Source of the DNA: Fusobacterium sp. JB019 | GTDB lineage: Bacteria; Fusobacteriota; Fusobacteriia; Fusobacteriales; Fusobacteriaceae | DNA: 64,000 nucleotides | NCBI GenBank assembly: GCA_030673965.1 | Contig: JAUTCN010000011.1 | Span: 1 to 64,000 of the forward strand | Direction of reading: 5' to 3' | Part shown: positions 50,770 through 56,564 of the stretch, piece after piece | How positions within the stretch are numbered: the stretch's first letter is position 1 | How the letters are laid out: each line of letters begins with the position of its first letter | Position numbers and translations under genes: made by a program | The notes under the pieces: generated by a model | What the model saw: the letters and a program-made list of their open reading frames with translations, nothing else | Database searches by the model: none | What the model was told of the DNA's origin: nothing

Positions 50770-51759
50770 TTATTTATTATATACATTTCCCATAAGACCA
50801 ACTATTTTTTTAGCTTCTGTTAGTTTTTTTCTAGCTATTTCCCTAGCTTTTAAAGCACCTTTTCTAAGAACTTCTTCTACATATTCTGGATTTTTAACAA
50901 GTTCTTCTCTTCTTTCACGAGCATCTTTAAAATATTCTAAAATAGCTTCAAGTAATTCTTTTTTAGCATGTCCATAACCATATCCTCCAGCTTTAAATTT
51001 ATCTCTCATTTCTTGGTACTTTTCTTCAGTTACAAATAATTTATATAATTTAGAAACATTGTTATCAGGATCTTTAGGTTCTTCTAAAGGAGTCGAGTCA
51101 GTTACAATGGACATAACTTGTTTTTTAAGAACTTTTTTTGAGGCAAACATATTTATAGTATTACCATAAGATTTACTCATTTTTTGTCCATCTGTTCCTG
51201 GAACAATAGCAAGACTATCCATAATTAAAGGTTCAGGAAGTTTAAAGAAATCAACATTATATTGTTGATTAAATTTTGCTGCTAAATCTCTAGTCATTTC
51301 AAGATGTTGTTTTTGATCTTTACCAACTGGTACAATATCAGTATCATAAATTAAGATATCTGAAGCCATAAGAATAGGATAAGTAAGAAGTCCAGTATTT
51401 GGGAATAATCCTTTGGCAATTTTATCTTTATAAGAATGTCCTCTTTCCATAAGACCAACAGGTGTTATATTAGAAAGAAACCAAGATAATTCAATATGTT
51501 CTGGAACATCAGATTGTAAAAATAATGTTGATTTTTCAGGATCAAGACCAATTGCTAAATAATCTAAGATAATGTTTTTAGTACTTTCTCTTAGAACTTC
51601 TGGATTAGTAAGAGAAGTAAGAGCATGATAGTCAGCAATAAAATAAAAACCTTCGTATTTTCCTGAGTTTTGATTTTCTATAAATTGTTTCATAGCTCCA
51701 AAATAATTTCCAAGATGTAAAGTTCCACTTGGTTGTATTCCTGATAAACTTCTTTGCAT
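50770..51759 (-). CDS. trpS: tryptophanyl-tRNA synthetase
   Basis: The 329-residue class I synthetase has SGIQPSGTLHLGN (HIGH-type motif, residues 6-18), GLLTYPILMASDIL and VGKDQKQHLE in the catalytic core, and the KMSKS loop in DGQKMSKSYG near residue 195. It charges tRNA-Trp. The start ATG 51759 is clear from the N-terminal motif, yet the only good Shine-Dalgarno (AAAGGAGGGAG) ends about 35 bases upstream, with a small hairpin between. The 250-nt leader encodes a Trp-rich peptide and a terminator, indicating attenuation by charged tRNA-Trp. Confidence 0.97.
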   Translation of the reverse strand: MQRSLSGIQPSGTLHLGNYFGAMKQFIENQNSGKYEGFYFIADYHALTSLTNPEVLRESTKNIILDYLAIGLDPEKSTLFLQSDVPEHIELSWFLSNITPVGLMERGHSYKDKIAKGLFPNTGLLTYPILMASDILIYDTDIVPVGKDQKQHLEMTRDLAAKFNQQYNVDFFKLPEPLIMDSLAIVPGTDGQKMSKSYGNTINMFASKKVLKKQVMSIVTDSTPLEEPKDPDNNVSKLYKLFVTEEKYQEMRDKFKAGGYGYGHAKKELLEAILEYFKDARERREELVKNPEYVEEVLRKGALKAREIARKKLTEAKKIVGLMGNVYNK

Positions 51760-51829
51760 AAAATTTCGCTGTTAAAACTATATATTTTAACAACTCCCTC
51801 CTTTAAAAAATAAAATTGTTTTTTATAAT

Positions 51830-51856
51830 AAAAAAACCTGTGAATGTATCACAGGG
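51830..51856 (-). terminator. attenuator terminator in the trpS leader
   Basis: On the minus strand CCTGTGA (51849-51855) pairs with TCACAGG (51837-51843) and is followed by seven T. It lies about 80 bases downstream of the leader peptide and 70 bases before trpS, so it can stop transcription before the structural gene. Confidence 0.88.
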
Positions 51857-51935
51857 ACTAATGTCAATACTTGTAATACAAATTATTTTAGTGCTTATTA
51901 AAATAGACTTGTATTAAAAATTACAAATCTTAAAA

Positions 51936-51980
51936 TTAATTATTCCACCAACATAAAATTGTATTAACTAACTTATTCAT
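51936..51980 (-). CDS. trpS leader peptide with tandem Trp codons
   Basis: The ORF encodes MNKLVNTILCWWNN and stops. AGGAG lies 6 bases before its ATG, a proper initiation site. Two adjacent TGG codons occur in 14, though Trp is a rare residue. The arrangement of promoter, leader peptide, alternative AATACAA/TTGTATT pairings and terminator is the layout of trpL-type attenuation: ribosome stalling at scarce Trp-tRNA would prevent termination. No T-box signature is present. A leader peptide on trpS rather than on trp biosynthesis genes is unusual. Confidence 0.75.
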   Translation of the reverse strand: MNKLVNTILCWWNN

Positions 51981-52013
51981 AATTAACTCCTAAATCTAAA
52001 TTAAGATAAATAA

Positions 52014-52042
52014 AGTATATCATGATTTTTTTTTATAATCAA
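52014..52042 (-). promoter_or_regulatory. promoter of the trpS leader
   Basis: On the minus strand TTGATT (52037-52042) and TATACT (52014-52019) are separated by 17 bp. A start near 52007 gives the leader peptide a 27-nt 5' untranslated region. Confidence 0.75.
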
Positions 52043-52126
52043 GTTAAAAGTATTGGTTTTAAAAGATTAAAAATATTAAAAAAAGTATGCTATAATTGGT
52101 TTATAATGAAAAAGGAAGGAAAATTT

Positions 52127-53089
52127 ATGAGAGCAACAATAAAAGATATTGCTAATTTAGCTGGAGTATCAGGCTCAACTGTTTCAAGAGCTTTAGCTGA
52201 TGATTCTAGGATTAGTGATAAAACGAAAGAAAAAGTTCAAAAAATAGCAAAGGAATTAAATTATAAACCTAATATAATGGCAAGAGGCTTAGTAAGTAAA
52301 AGAAAAGGAATACTTGGAGTTGTTTTGCCTAAAGCAACCATGGAACTTTTTACAAGTCAATTTTTTATAGAAATTATGCAAGGAATAAGCAAAAGGGCAA
52401 AGGAAAATAATTATTATATTATGTTTGATTTTTGTAAGAGTGATAAAGAGGAATTTGTAAGTACTAAGAAGTTTGTAGAAAGTGGGTTAGTAGACGGAGT
52501 ATGTTTATTATCTTCTAGAGATGAGGATCAAAGTTTGGAATTTTTAAAAAGAAAAAAATTTCCCTTTGTAGTTATAGGGGAACCTATGGAAAAAAAAGAT
52601 ACTTTGTGGGTTGATAATAATAATTTAGAGGCAACTTATAATATTGTAAAAAAATATAAAAATGAAAAAGAGTTAATTTTTGTAGGTGGGAGCAAGCATT
52701 TAATTGTTACCAAAAATAGAGTAAATGGATTTAAAAAAGCATGCAAAGAATTTCATCTAAAGGGAGAAATTATTTTAGGAAATAATTTCTCAATTGAAGA
52801 AGGATATAGATTAGCTAAAAAAATAAAAATAAAAGAAAAATTGGAAAAAATAATAATTTCAGATGATCAATTATTAAAGGGTGTTTTAGAATATTTTGAA
52901 GAGGAACACATATCGAATGTTGAAATAATAAGTTTTAATAAATGTGATGTGAAAGAAGTTTGGAAAAAGAAAGTAAAGACAATAGATATTAAGGCGAGTA
53001 AACTTGGGAGTAAAGCTATTGAATTACTATTATATGGGATAGAAGAAAATATTAATGAAAAAAATGAAATGATAAATATAGAATTTTAG
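52127..53089 (+). CDS. LacI family transcriptional regulator, MalR-like
   Basis: The start chosen is ATG 52127 (MRATIKDIANLAGVS), after GGAAGG; longer in-frame starts add residues without homology to the family. The 320-residue protein has the N-terminal LacI HTH and hinge (ATIKDIANLAGVSGSTVSRA, then NYKPNIMARGL) and a periplasmic-binding-like sensor domain. A matching palindrome lies at 53188. It heads an alpha-glucoside operon, so it is probably a maltose-type repressor. An extended -10, TGCTATAAT, lies at 52088-52096. Confidence 0.9.
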   Translation: MRATIKDIANLAGVSGSTVSRALADDSRISDKTKEKVQKIAKELNYKPNIMARGLVSKRKGILGVVLPKATMELFTSQFFIEIMQGISKRAKENNYYIMFDFCKSDKEEFVSTKKFVESGLVDGVCLLSSRDEDQSLEFLKRKKFPFVVIGEPMEKKDTLWVDNNNLEATYNIVKKYKNEKELIFVGGSKHLIVTKNRVNGFKKACKEFHLKGEIILGNNFSIEEGYRLAKKIKIKEKLEKIIISDDQLLKGVLEYFEEEHISNVEIISFNKCDVKEVWKKKVKTIDIKASKLGSKAIELLLYGIEENINEKNEMINIEF

Positions 53090-53097
53090 GGGGATAA

Positions 53098-53130
53098 AAA
53101 AGTTGCGAATGTATATTTGTAACTTTTTTT
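53098..53130 (+). terminator. weak terminator after the LacI-type regulator
   Basis: AAAAAGTTGCGAAT and ATTTGTAACTTTTT form a stem with G-U pairs, followed by T. It separates the regulator from the catabolic genes. Confidence 0.6.
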
Positions 53131-53140
53131 GTTTTATATA

Positions 53141-53201
53141 TAGACAAGTCAAGGATAAAGTGATACAATAATTATCAAAAGAAGCTATGCAAACGATTGC
53201 A
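53141..53201 (+). promoter_or_regulatory. promoter and LacI/MalR-type operator of the alpha-glucoside operon
   Basis: TAGACA (53141-53146) and TACAAT (53164-53169) are separated by 17 bp. The palindrome TGCAAACGATTGCA (53188-53201) is centred about 18 bases after the expected start, a blocking position. It has the central CG and TGCAA arms typical of LacI-family sites such as those of MalR and CcpA. Confidence 0.78.
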
Positions 53202-53232
53202 CAAAAAAATGAAAGAGTTAAGGAGATAAATT

Positions 53233-54897
53233 ATGTGGTGGAAAGAATTAACAGGATATCAAATTTACCCTAGAAGTTTTAAAGACTCTAATGGAGATGG
53301 AATAGGAGATTTAGGAGGGGTTATAGAAAAATTAGATTACCTAAAAGAATTAGGGATTGATTTAATTTGGATATGTCCTTTTTATAAAAGTCCTAATGAT
53401 GATAATGGATATGATATTAGTGATTATCAAGATATTTCCAAAGAATTTGGAAATATGAAAGATGTAGATAAATTATTAGTAGAAACACATAAAAGAGGAA
53501 TAAAATTAATAATTGATTTAGTTATAAATCATACAAGTGATGAACATCCATGGTTTATTGAATCAAGAGAAAATAAGAATAATCCTAAAAGAGATTGGTA
53601 TATATGGAAAGAAGGCAAAAAAGGAAAAGAACCAAATAACTGGGAAAGTATATTTAAAGGTTCAGCTTGGGAATTAGATAAAAAAACTAAAGAATATTAT
53701 TTACATTTATTTTCAAAAAAACAACCAGATTTAAATTGGGAAAATAAAGAAATGAGACAAGCTATTTATAAAATGATTAATTGGTGGCTAGATAAGGGAA
53801 TCGATGGTTTTAGAGTAGATGCTATTAGTCACATAAAAAAAGAAGATGGATTTCCAGATATGCCTAATCCAAAAAAAGAAAAATATGTAGAATCTTTTGA
53901 TATGCATATGAATAGACCTGGAATTCAAAAATATTTAAAAGAATTAAAGAAAGAAACTTTTGATAAGTATAATATAGTTACAGTTGGAGAAGCTAACGGA
54001 GTAGAAGCAGATAATGCTTCTCAGTGGGTAGGAGAAAAAGATGGAAAATTTAATATGATATTTCAATTTGAGCATTTAAATCTTTGGGATTATGAAAAAG
54101 AACTTAAATTTTCTGCTAGAAATTACAAAAGAATTTTAAATAAATGGCAAGTAGCGTTGGATAAAGATGGTTGGAATGCTTTATTCATAGAAAATCATGA
54201 TATTACAAGAAGTGTATCTAGATGGGGAAATGATAATAAGTATTGGTTAGAATCGGCAAAATCTTTAGGGGTAGCTTATTTTTTACAAAAGGGAACACCT
54301 TTTATTTATCAAGGTCAAGAAATAGGAATGACTAATATAAAATTTAAAGATTTGACTGAGGTAAATGATATTAGAAGTAGAAATGAAGCTAGAGAAAAAT
54401 TAGAATCAGGAATTTCTATGGAAAAGGTTTTAGATTATCTAAATAATACTTCAAGAGATAATTCTAGAACACCTATGCAATGGAATAATAAAAAAAATGC
54501 TGGTTTTACAACTGGGAATCCATGGCTTAAAATAAATGAAAATTACAAAGAAATAAATGTTGAAAGTCAAATGAAAGATAAGGATTCAATATATAATTTT
54601 TATAAAGATTTAATAGAATTAAGAAAAAATTCAAAAACATTAATTTATGGAAAATTTAATTTAATTTTAAAAAATATAGAAGATGTTTTTGCATATTCTA
54701 GAATTTTAGAAGATGAAGAATATTTAATAATTTCTAATTTAAGTGAAAAAATAAAAAAAATAAAGATAAAAGAATATGAGGATAAAGATAAAGAATTGTT
54801 AGTAAGTAATTATAAGGAATCAGACCATTTTTTAGAAAGAATGGTATTAAAACCTTATGAATGTCTTGTATATAAAATAAATAGAAAAAATAAATAA
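53233..54897 (+). CDS. GH13 alpha-glucosidase (oligo-1,6-glucosidase/maltase type)
   Basis: The 554-residue enzyme has the GH13 catalytic triad Asp196 (GFRVDAI), Glu253 (VTVGEAN) and Asp323 (ENHD), plus GDGIGDLGGVIEKLDYL at the N-terminus, as in the oligo-1,6-glucosidase subfamily. It hydrolyses short alpha-glucosides in the cytoplasm (no signal peptide). Trehalose-6-phosphate hydrolases are close relatives, so the exact substrate needs care. It is the first catabolic gene after the operator, followed by the PTS, phosphatase-like and glucokinase genes. Confidence 0.88.
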   Translation: MWWKELTGYQIYPRSFKDSNGDGIGDLGGVIEKLDYLKELGIDLIWICPFYKSPNDDNGYDISDYQDISKEFGNMKDVDKLLVETHKRGIKLIIDLVINHTSDEHPWFIESRENKNNPKRDWYIWKEGKKGKEPNNWESIFKGSAWELDKKTKEYYLHLFSKKQPDLNWENKEMRQAIYKMINWWLDKGIDGFRVDAISHIKKEDGFPDMPNPKKEKYVESFDMHMNRPGIQKYLKELKKETFDKYNIVTVGEANGVEADNASQWVGEKDGKFNMIFQFEHLNLWDYEKELKFSARNYKRILNKWQVALDKDGWNALFIENHDITRSVSRWGNDNKYWLESAKSLGVAYFLQKGTPFIYQGQEIGMTNIKFKDLTEVNDIRSRNEAREKLESGISMEKVLDYLNNTSRDNSRTPMQWNNKKNAGFTTGNPWLKINENYKEINVESQMKDKDSIYNFYKDLIELRKNSKTLIYGKFNLILKNIEDVFAYSRILEDEEYLIISNLSEKIKKIKIKEYEDKDKELLVSNYKESDHFLERMVLKPYECLVYKINRKNK

Positions 54898-54914
54898 AAG
54901 AAGGGGAGAATAGT

Positions 54915-56564
54915 ATGAGTAGAAAAAGTTTAGTGTCTTTTGATTTTTGGCAAAAATTTGGTAAAGCGTTAATAGTTGTTATTGCAGTAATGCCAGCAGC
55001 TGGTTTAATGATTTCTATAGGAAAGTTACTAGGGACTACTTCAATTGGAATAGCAGGAAGAATAATGGAAGATATGGGGTGGGCAATAATTGTTAATTTA
55101 AACATTTTATTTGCTGCTGCCATAGGAGGTTCTTGGGCTAAAGAAAAAGCTGGAGGAGCTTTTGCAGGGGTTTTATCTTTCATATTAATTAATAGAATAA
55201 CAGGAGCTATATTTGGAATAAATAATTCAATGTTACATAGTGCAACTGCAACAGTTCACTCAATAACAGGTCAAGAATTATTAGTTAAGAATTATTTTAC
55301 AACAATATTAGGAGCTCCAGCTTTAAATATGGGAGTTTTCGTAGGGATATTAGCAGGATTTTTAGGAGCAGTTTTATTTAATAAATATCATTCTTTTGAT
55401 AAATTACCTAAATCTTTAGCTTTCTTCAATGGTAAAAGATTTGTACCATTTGTAGTAATATTTGGATCTTTAATAACTGCACTTATTTTATCTGTCATTT
55501 GGCCATTTATCCAATGGGCATTAAATAGTTTTGGTCAATGGATAGCTACTTCAAGAAATACAGCACCAGTAGTTGCACCTTTTGTATATGGAGCTTTAGA
55601 AAGATTGTTATTACCATTTGGTCTTCACCATATGATAACAATACCAATGAATTATACAGAGTTAGGTGGAACTTATACAGTGTTGACAGGAACAGCAGTA
55701 GGAAGTGTTATAGCAGGACAAGATCCTATTTGGCTTGCATGGATAACTGATTTAAATAATTTAAAGGCTTCTGGAGATATGGCAGGTTATCAAAATTTAT
55801 TAAACACAGTTGTTCCTGCTAGATTTAAAGCAGGACAAGTAGTATTATCATTTGCTTCTCTAATGGGAGTAGGGCTTGCAATGTTAAGAAATGTAGATAA
55901 AGATAAAAAGAAAAAGTATGAGACAGTATTTATTTCAGCTATGTTAGCAGTATTTTTAACAGGGGTAACAGAACCGATTGAATTTATGTTTATGTTTGTA
56001 GCTCCAATTTTATATGTTGTTTATGCTCTTCTTACAGGAATGACATTTGCTATAGCAGATATAATACATTTAAGAGTTCATGCTTTTGGATCTTTAGAGT
56101 TAGCTTCTCGTCTTCCTTTAATGGTTAGAGCAGGATTAGTTGGGGATATAATTAATTTCCTTATTGTTTCAGTAGTAGCATTTTTCGTTAATTATCTATT
56201 ATTTAGCTTTATAATTAAGAAATTTGACTTACCAACTCCAGGAAGAAAAGGAAATTATATAGAAGATGAAACAGAAGATGAAAAAGAAAAAATAAAAACT
56301 TCTATCAAAGCAGAGTCTGAAGATGAAAAAATTCCAGTTAGAATAATAGATCTTTTAGGTGGAAGAGAAAATATTTTAGATGTAGATGCTTGTATGACAA
56401 GATTAAGAGTTACTGTTAGAAAAGCTGAAGATGTTCAAGATAAATCAGAATGGAAAAAAACAGGAAGTTTAGGATTGATAGTTAAAGATCAAGGAGTTCA
56501 AGCAATATATGGACCTAAAGCAGATATATTAAAATCTAAAATTATAGATATTTTAGGGAGATAA
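54915..56564 (+). CDS. PTS EIICB component, glucose/maltose family
   Basis: The 549-residue protein has an N-terminal EIIC domain with about ten membrane segments (VIAVMPAAGLMISIGKLLG at the start, PFVYGALERLLLPFGLHH in the middle, TGVTEPIEFMFMF near residue 360) and a C-terminal EIIB domain with phospho-Cys493 in DACMTRLRV. No EIIA domain is present, so EIIA must come from another locus. It imports and phosphorylates a sugar. Context points to maltose or a related alpha-glucoside, as with E. faecalis MalT. Confidence 0.9.
   Translation: MSRKSLVSFDFWQKFGKALIVVIAVMPAAGLMISIGKLLGTTSIGIAGRIMEDMGWAIIVNLNILFAAAIGGSWAKEKAGGAFAGVLSFILINRITGAIFGINNSMLHSATATVHSITGQELLVKNYFTTILGAPALNMGVFVGILAGFLGAVLFNKYHSFDKLPKSLAFFNGKRFVPFVVIFGSLITALILSVIWPFIQWALNSFGQWIATSRNTAPVVAPFVYGALERLLLPFGLHHMITIPMNYTELGGTYTVLTGTAVGSVIAGQDPIWLAWITDLNNLKASGDMAGYQNLLNTVVPARFKAGQVVLSFASLMGVGLAMLRNVDKDKKKKYETVFISAMLAVFLTGVTEPIEFMFMFVAPILYVVYALLTGMTFAIADIIHLRVHAFGSLELASRLPLMVRAGLVGDIINFLIVSVVAFFVNYLLFSFIIKKFDLPTPGRKGNYIEDETEDEKEKIKTSIKAESEDEKIPVRIIDLLGGRENILDVDACMTRLRVTVRKAEDVQDKSEWKKTGSLGLIVKDQGVQAIYGPKADILKSKIIDILGR

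Follow-up and report, generated by a model that had tools for sequence, protein, structure and literature searches.

A putative tandem-Trp leader-peptide attenuator before trpS of Fusobacterium sp. JB019 and its likeness to a leader layout with exchangeable codon runs

The his attenuator of enterobacteria has six segments, alternating sets of helices and a codon run in its leader, and Vecchione and Sello have reportedly worked on Streptomyces trpS1. Published accounts, as far as their available text goes, describe leader-peptide attenuators of trpS and leuS in Streptomyces and of pheST in gamma-proteobacteria (PMC1262725), the cysS attenuator uORFC-8-2 in Rhodobacterales (PMC8632094) and His leader peptides before hisZ and hisS paralogs in bacilli (PMC2965389). 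The trpB motif (RF04312; SRC-39-1) is presented, in the available text of PMC11109978, as a strong candidate for a riboswitch, with over 900 representatives known from Firmicutes and Fusobacteria and located most commonly before an amino-acid-type ABC transporter, and a classic attenuator was not ruled out by its authors.

The locus compared here with these systems lies upstream of trpS in the window, i.e. the whole stretch of 64,000 nt from Fusobacterium sp. JB019 (genome G000) that was analysed. A first-pass annotation of the window had named a promoter, an AGGAG, the MNKLVNTILCWWNN ORF with TGG TGG, AATACAA/TTGTATT repeats and a terminator, all of which were present at their places on the minus strand. 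These elements and the pairing segments distinguished in this work are as follows.

52014..52042, minus strand: sigma-70-like promoter TTGATT-17-TATACT (TTGATT 52042-52037, 17 nt, TATACT 52019-52014); from sequence
51987..51991, minus strand: Shine-Dalgarno sequence AGGAG of the leader ORF; from sequence
51936..51980, minus strand: leader ORF MNKLVNTILCWWNN followed by a stop codon; from sequence, the tandem Trp codons being kept in relatives
51945..51950, minus strand: regulatory codons TGG TGG; from sequence
51959..51966, minus strand: segment A (TAATACAA), within the ORF, with C as its possible partner if ribosome-free; from helices and footprint
51922..51930, minus strand: segment B1 (AGATTTGTA), partner of B2; from helices, footprint and shuffles
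51905..51916, minus strand: segment B2 (TAATACAAGTCT), whose 3' part pairs with B1 and 5' part with C; from helices
51872..51881, minus strand: segment C (TTGTATTACA), partner of A, B2 or D; from helices and folds
51845..51853, minus strand: segment D (TGTGATACA), overlapping the 5' arm of the terminator, antiterminator partner of C; from helices, folds and shuffles
51830..51855, minus strand: intrinsic terminator (D:E) CCTGTGA-TACAT-TCACAGG at 51855-51837 with a T-run to 51830; -9.7 kcal/mol
50770..51759, minus strand: trpS, tryptophan--tRNA ligase; NCBIfam TIGR00233, 308 bits, cutoff 176.75

The terminator ended 70 nt 5' of the trpS start (51759).

The stretch upstream of trpS was examined in 58 of 61 Fusobacteriaceae genomes, no trpS having been found in the remaining three; a script scanned 600 nt, or as far as the contig end, in 55 of the 58, and about 330 nt were read by eye in G017, G035 and G051. 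A search for the TGGTGG pattern across genomes was dropped as too unspecific. A short ORF with neighbouring Trp codons, its start about 190-230 nt 5' of trpS, was present in 10 of the 58 genomes, which belonged to four genera: g1 (G000, G005 and G002), g14 (G030 and G037), g5 (G010) and g12 (G028, G039, G035 and G017). Against conservation stands the window's own genus, where four of the seven g1 genomes were without the leader (by eye). Promoter and terminator (CCTGTGA..TCACAGG) remained in G003 and G006 with the middle missing, and the promoter alone remained before trpS in G001 and G004 (by eye). In G006 and G003 (L005 and L006) the terminator stood close behind the trpS promoter with leader and switch absent, i.e. 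as a relic terminator.

The leaders of g1, g14 and g5 (class II) had their stop codon one or two residues past the Trp pair and a spacer of 79-91 nt before the terminator, and the promoter of the G002 leader (L009) was similar to that of the window (TTGATA...TATACT). In an eleventh genome, G019 (g14), TGA replaced the first TGG of the pair (L114) and the spacer measured 101 nt. With a Trp codon lost and the terminator weakened, this attenuator is seemingly decaying in both parts. The g12 leaders comprised 22 residues with a GTG start and WWW or WW, and resembled trpE leaders (FTWWWK); G048 (g12) was without the leader ORF of its relatives, the downstream part still being there. trpA was found in 10 of the 11 genomes with a trpS leader (G019 counted) vs five of the 47 others (Fisher 6e-7, for genomes that are not independent of one another).

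Five helices, A:C, B1:B2, B2:C, C:D (antiterminator) and D:E (terminator), could be drawn in all seven class II leaders, and the window leader had the order leader ORF, stop, B1, B2, C, D, E together with these helices (arms picked by eye). The antiterminator of the window was computed as 9 bp between 51880-51872 and 51853-51845, and the copy TAATACAA in the ORF, at -207, paired with C at 8/8 positions. The shortest helices were C:D of G037 (5 bp, then a bulge) and B1:B2 of G010 (5 bp). One terminator position was unpaired in G019, whose terminator was the weakest of the seven (-5.8 vs -9.7 to -15.6 kcal/mol).

Ribosome geometry was derived from an assumed footprint of 15 nt on each side of the first base of the P-site codon. 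With the first Trp codon in the A site, A was fully covered (8/8 nt in the window) and B1 uncovered in all six intact leaders, and a ribosome at the stop codon covered 4-5 nt of B1 in the same six; in G019, B1 was uncovered by the ribosome at the stop.

Minimum-energy folding, a further check named in the first-pass annotation, agreed with this arrangement in part. In folds of the stalled state before E emerges, B1:B2 and C:D formed together in all six intact leaders, for G000, G002, G037 and G010 when the A site held the first Trp codon, but for G005 and G030 only when it held the second. For the stop-codon state, again before E emerges, B2:C was the minimum in four of the six leaders (G000, G005, G030 and G037) but not in G002 and G010. 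Ribosome-free folds had A:C in the minimum for G005, G030 and G037, and in G002 alongside C:D; those of G000 and G010 favoured C:D over A:C, which makes the role of A in the window doubtful and slightly lowers confidence in the attenuator reading. When E was included, D of the six intact leaders had hardly any partner but E, whatever the state; the choice must therefore be kinetic, made while RNA polymerase is still moving.

Pairing was also compared with 300 spacer shuffles per leader, with p values combined by Fisher's method over the four non-sister leaders G000, G002, G030 and G010. The spacer:D duplex (combined p=2.9e-5), the hairpin after the stop codon (combined p=2.7e-5) and the pairing of A with the spacer (combined p=3.6e-3) all exceeded the shuffles. 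The switch, taken as the difference between the stalled and stop states, gave a combined p=5.4e-3 that was carried by G030 and G000, with G005 also low; singly it was not significant in G002, G037 and G010 (0.32-0.45).

Tandem Trp codons could be a product of composition, the locus then being an ordinary terminator that follows a promoter and an ORF present by chance. The sequence is AT-rich, and short ORFs with adjacent Trp codons occur at random: there were six in the window on both strands, and 33 in 388 kb of strand, nine of them with an SD-like sequence (this pool being the window and L166-L183, both strands, trpE leaders included), so that a single such ORF means little alone. The window leader was nevertheless judged to be above chance, since the same arrangement stood about 190-230 nt before trpS in four genera and the spacer exceeded its shuffles. 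Together with the antiterminator, the hairpin and the ribosome geometry, this makes a chance ORF very improbable.

Charged tRNA could also be sensed through direct binding of uncharged tRNA-Trp to the trpS leader, as in a T-box, and T-boxes do occur in Fusobacteriaceae. One was found in the window genome itself, directly before trpE (G000:C2:400391-400662; L154 and L166; 95.5 bits, cutoff 93), with TGG at the specifier place (by eye); other Fusobacteriaceae T-boxes whose surroundings were viewed stood before apparent asparagine or aspartate genes (by eye). The available text of PMC2494555 gives no T-boxes for its two Fusobacteria/Thermotogae genomes. At trpS, in agreement with the first-pass annotation, which had seen no T-box motif there, the window leader (L003) had no Rfam match at gathering thresholds or at E≤0.1, so a T-box can be set aside almost entirely for this gene; the gammaproteobacterial Trp leader of Rfam likewise gave no match. 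The trpE region was taken from 13 of the 17 trpA-bearing genomes besides G000. That of G017 ended at the contig end, and the 186 nt visible before G005 trpE held neither leader nor T-box. In all of the 11 other genomes, from genera g3, g5, g7, g9, g12 and g14, trpE was preceded by a WW or WWW leader and a terminator (L168-L174 and L179-L182; terminators by eye).

The features of the window leader point to a switch in which C, when bound by B2 (or A), would leave D free for E, and transcription would end before trpS. When Trp-tRNA is short, the ribosome would stall at TGG TGG, covering A and leaving B1 free; B1 would hold B2, C would pair with D, no terminator would form and trpS would be transcribed. 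When Trp-tRNA is plentiful, the ribosome would reach the stop codon and cover part of B1, B2 would take C and transcription would stop. With the WW leader and terminator conserved and the antiterminator, which had escaped the first-pass annotation, now named, the ribosome-stalling attenuator proposed there is still the best explanation, and the window trpS leader very probably senses charged tRNA-Trp and attenuates transcription by way of the ribosome. What is observed are the parts with their complementarity, conservation and geometry; from the Shine-Dalgarno sequence and the conservation we infer translation of the leader, and the model predicts stalling, a choice between helices during transcription, a role for A and a response to Trp.

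The earlier label 'trpL-like' is not strictly apt, because six segments (A, B1, B2, C, D and E) are needed, which brings the arrangement nearer to the his attenuator than to the four-segment trp topology. The likeness to the his attenuator lies in the six segments, the alternating helices and the leader codon run; unlike in that attenuator, A of the trpS leader pairs with C around B1:B2, and not with B1, and the codons vary among loci.

The suggestion that this might be an undescribed solution on a synthetase gene has to be narrowed, as synthetase attenuators are known in Streptomyces, gamma-proteobacteria and Rhodobacterales and the leader is not isolated, resembling a widespread layout with swappable codons. 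As here, the leader codons of Streptomyces trpS and leuS, of pheST (PMC1262725) and of cysS (PMC8632094) are, in the available text, those for the synthetase's own amino acid. Unlike those systems, which as described there belong to other lineages, the present layout is common to synthetase, transporter and biosynthesis genes. Among the literature matches listed, with most subscription journals outside coverage, none described such leaders in Fusobacteriota or reclassified the trpB motif.

A model (R1) was built from the seven class II trpS leaders, the window leader included, so that its match at the window leader is by construction. At E≤0.01 across the 61 Fusobacteriaceae genomes it returned its seven leaders and three places not at trpS: two before an NSS symporter, with leaders ending FWWWP (PF00209 for L226), and one before an AGCS symporter, with the leader KINTTSYYYYYRT (TIGR00835 for L228). 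Matches of Rfam manA-II on L226 and L227 (35.5 and 33.1 bits; cutoff 100) were judged to be chance matches. R1 reached E<0.05 at one (L288, 0.019) of 19 loci from the wider family described below; because R1 is this weak there, trpS leaders are tied to that family by a second model (R2), by the layout and by the three non-trpS matches of R1.

The core of the layout overlaps the trpB motif. As far as the available text of PMC11109978 shows, its P1 corresponds to B2:C and its P2 to the terminator D:E, and its antiterminator lies in the right shoulder of P1, as in trpS leaders; that text leaves a leader ORF and B1 unmentioned, and the trpS leader has both. RF04312 matched the G010 trpS leader weakly (37 bits, cutoff 59), did not match the window trpS leader and gave nothing at E≤2 at the trpS leaders of G030, G002 and G005. 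At E≤0.05 it matched in 55 of 149 genomes, 47 of them among the 61 Fusobacteriaceae, with none over cutoff, and weak matches also occurred in three of 14 control genomes.

Leaders at these places were scored by a rule, set after the sequences had been seen, that asked for an SD, 7-40 codons, a stop codon within 45 nt 5' of the motif and at least two Trp, three His, three Tyr, four Tyr plus Phe or three Pro codons. It was passed at 25 of 30 automatically fetched RF04312 loci, all in Fusobacteriaceae, vs 43 of 3706 control positions (1.2 %) in the same loci. Among the five misses, weaker leaders were present at L241 (one Trp), L244 and L252 (two Pro each, before PutP-type genes) and L249 (two His), and there was none at L258. 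Seventeen of 20 hand-chosen further places passed, vs 25 of 1078 control positions; one of those that passed, L278, looks like a chance ORF (B1:B2 p=0.425).

For a second class, taken to be Bacilli, G148 was used as the Firmicutes centre because of its 28 T-boxes. RF04312 at E≤0.001 gave 21 places in 19 of 398 genomes of this class, 11 of them over cutoff. Ten of these 11 had an SD-led leader directly upstream with at least two Trp codons, typically ending TWQNWRR before the stop, and the eleventh had a leader with one Trp (MIQLFYSIQVKMNHRWQSRHRRVV). Over all 21 places the rule was passed at 14, vs 66 of 2662 control positions (2.5 %); the misses included L291 and L293 (one Trp each), L292 (a Tyr/Phe ORF without a recognised SD) and L294, L295 and L297 (none). 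The matches without a run-bearing leader, L258, L267, L271 and L277 in Fusobacteriaceae and L294, L295 and L297 in the Bacilli set, are probably chance matches.

B1:B2 pairing, taken between the 5' arm of P1 and the stretch that separates it from the leader stop, exceeded mononucleotide shuffles with Fisher p values of 1e-33 for 42 fusobacterial leaders and 8e-15 for 14 other leaders, values that are not true probabilities because the members are related; singly, 13 of the 42 and one of the 14 were not below 0.05.

Model R2 was built from 21 hand-chosen fusobacterial leaders, none of them at trpS, and at E≤0.001 it found 122 places in 53 of the 61 genomes (counted from the table). Forty-six of its places were newly read (40 hand-chosen, six automatic), and 44 had an SD-led ORF at the expected place with at least two codons for one amino acid; the other two, before homoserine dehydrogenase and O-acetylhomoserine sulfhydrylase, had Met-rich ORFs without a recognised SD. 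The codon run varied with the downstream gene (genes not scanned were named by eye). The leaders of thrS, asnA, metG, tyrS, hisZ and putP had runs of Thr, Asn, Met, Tyr, His and Pro, respectively. Met runs also preceded metN, homoserine dehydrogenase and O-acetylhomoserine sulfhydrylase, a His run a polar amino-acid binding protein, and Tyr runs AGCS and a TrpX-like protein. Trp runs stood before TrpX and an NSS symporter, a Thr/Ile run before aspartate-semialdehyde dehydrogenase and a mixed aromatic one before DAHP synthase. The leader WQSWYF of L368 precedes a binding protein of ambiguous substrate. L337 and L357 (in G019 and G030) carried the leader MFRLTITTTIIIM with a terminator, and in the 400 nt downstream of them the script found no start of a large ORF.

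Twenty downstream proteins were scanned with NCBIfam. Eleven scored over the curated cutoff of an amino-acid-related family, and the run fitted in all 11 (L235, L244, L254, L260, L279, L338, L340, L343, L350, L358 and L359). Seven more had an amino-acid-specific best name below cutoff; five of these fitted (three hisZ, one MetN and one truncated PutP), and two did not fit or were ambiguous, namely L296 (Tyr/Phe leader, TrpX-like) and L229 (His leader, best name a Lys/Arg/Orn binding protein, HisJ lower). The family name of L266 (AGCS) does not point to any amino acid, and for L341 no family was returned at the NCBIfam threshold. The leader L289 (His run; hisZ as best name, below cutoff) is probably one of the hisZ His leaders of bacilli, which likewise have a leader ORF with a His run before hisZ, and which the available text of PMC2965389 describes for that gene family only, without a link to other amino acids.

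In the 21-sequence alignment, B1:B2 and D:E were paired in 93.9 % of cells, with double changes at 12 of 18 pairs, and B2:C, C:D and A:C in 89.2, 85.7 and 86.7 %, respectively; when partners were slid by 1-3 columns, at most 52.3 % were paired. Shuffle controls of the alignment were strong for B1:B2/D:E and for B2:C. They were weaker for C:D, where 13 of 500 shuffles equalled the observed pairing and 20 of 500 had as many doubly changed pairs, and for the double changes of A:C (16 of 500), whose conservation may partly reflect the codons because most rows are His leaders with A overlapping the His codons. B1 was free at the stall and at least six of its eight columns were covered at the stop in 21/21 leaders, a set to which Thr, Asn and Met leaders do not belong; in the Asn and Met leaders that were read, the ORF extended some 13-22 nt further, into B1.

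These observations can be weighed against the published reading of the trpB motif, in which P1 (B2:C) would bind an amino acid or a relative, P2 would be the terminator and the ORFs would be incidental. For this ligand-binding riboswitch, as the available text of PMC11109978 has it, speak its standing as a strong candidate and the covariation of P1 and the terminator. Against it, SD-led codon-run ORFs stood directly 5' of the motif far above the control frequencies given above in both classes, the codon run varied with the gene on a constant RNA layout, and B1, which lies outside the published model, paired with the 5' arm of P1 better than shuffles. A riboswitch is an improbable reading of the trpS leader.

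An arrest peptide requires a fixed sequence. In a TnaC-like arrest by free tryptophan, which would act with the opposite sign, the Trp in the leader peptide would have its place; the leader peptides have little in common apart from their codon runs, and leaders of similar layout have His, Tyr, Pro, Thr, Asn or Met there instead, so that such an arrest is very unlikely.

Our reading, made from sequence comparison and in which we have considerable confidence as a whole, is that trpB-motif RNAs are ribosome-mediated attenuators with the motif as the 3' part, and that one RNA layout would serve, both in Fusobacteriaceae and in the class taken to be Bacilli, as a general amino-acid sensor whose specificity can be exchanged. 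The ribosome would read whichever run is present, be it Trp, His, Tyr, Pro, Thr, Asn, Met, Thr/Ile or mixed aromatic, and A, B2 and D, as copies of a single short sequence, would compete for their one partner C.

The window leader stands at some distance from this family. Four R2 places lie in the window genome: one precedes a polar amino-acid binding protein (His run), one hisZ (His), and two are copies before a putP-type gene (NPMVP). Genome-wide at E≤0.001, no trpS leader was among the 122 places. In searches of 175 kb, R2 found the trpS leaders of G030, G010 and G037 (34-36 bits, E=0.0025-0.0044), G002 (31 bits, E=0.014) and G019 (E=0.75); those of G005 and the window were not found, the latter being absent at E≤1 window-wide. 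A targeted unfiltered search of 601 nt placed R2 on the window leader at its exact place (20 bits, E=0.004). A third model (R3), built from five trpS leaders without G000 and G005, gave the window leader 19.2 bits (E=0.33), ranked below two other places in the window, and so did not confirm it. The window trpS leader closely resembles the swappable-codon family and probably belongs to it as a divergent member; common descent is plausible, and the leader would work like the wider family whether or not the two share descent.

If correct, this reclassifies, in a testable way, an orphan riboswitch candidate of which over 900 representatives are reported, and a search for its ligand may therefore be misdirected. 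Attenuation by codon runs would then extend to Fusobacteriota, and a single architecture would serve at least seven amino acids, as a leader-peptide counterpart of the T-box in which mainly the codons differ between genes. The window genome may sense tRNA-Trp in two ways, by the leader peptide of trpS and the T-box of trpE. Where the family of a transporter does not by itself reveal the substrate, the codon run gives a hint, namely Trp for the NSS symporter and Tyr for AGCS symporters.

Some further features of the trpS surroundings were recorded. The Shine-Dalgarno sequence of trpS lies about 36 nt 5' of its ATG, with a hairpin GTTAAAA..TTTTAAC in between (window 51804-51760, minus strand), and G005 has GCTAAAT..ATTTAGC at the same place, a compensated change that suggests a conserved hairpin by which the Shine-Dalgarno spacing would be shortened. 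On the plus strand, at 52022-56564, there are a divergent LacI-type regulator, an alpha-amylase-family hydrolase and PTS genes (by eye), which have their promoter region in common with trpS. The trpS neighbourhood of G002 contains a purine riboswitch (81.5 bits, L009:3195-3296).
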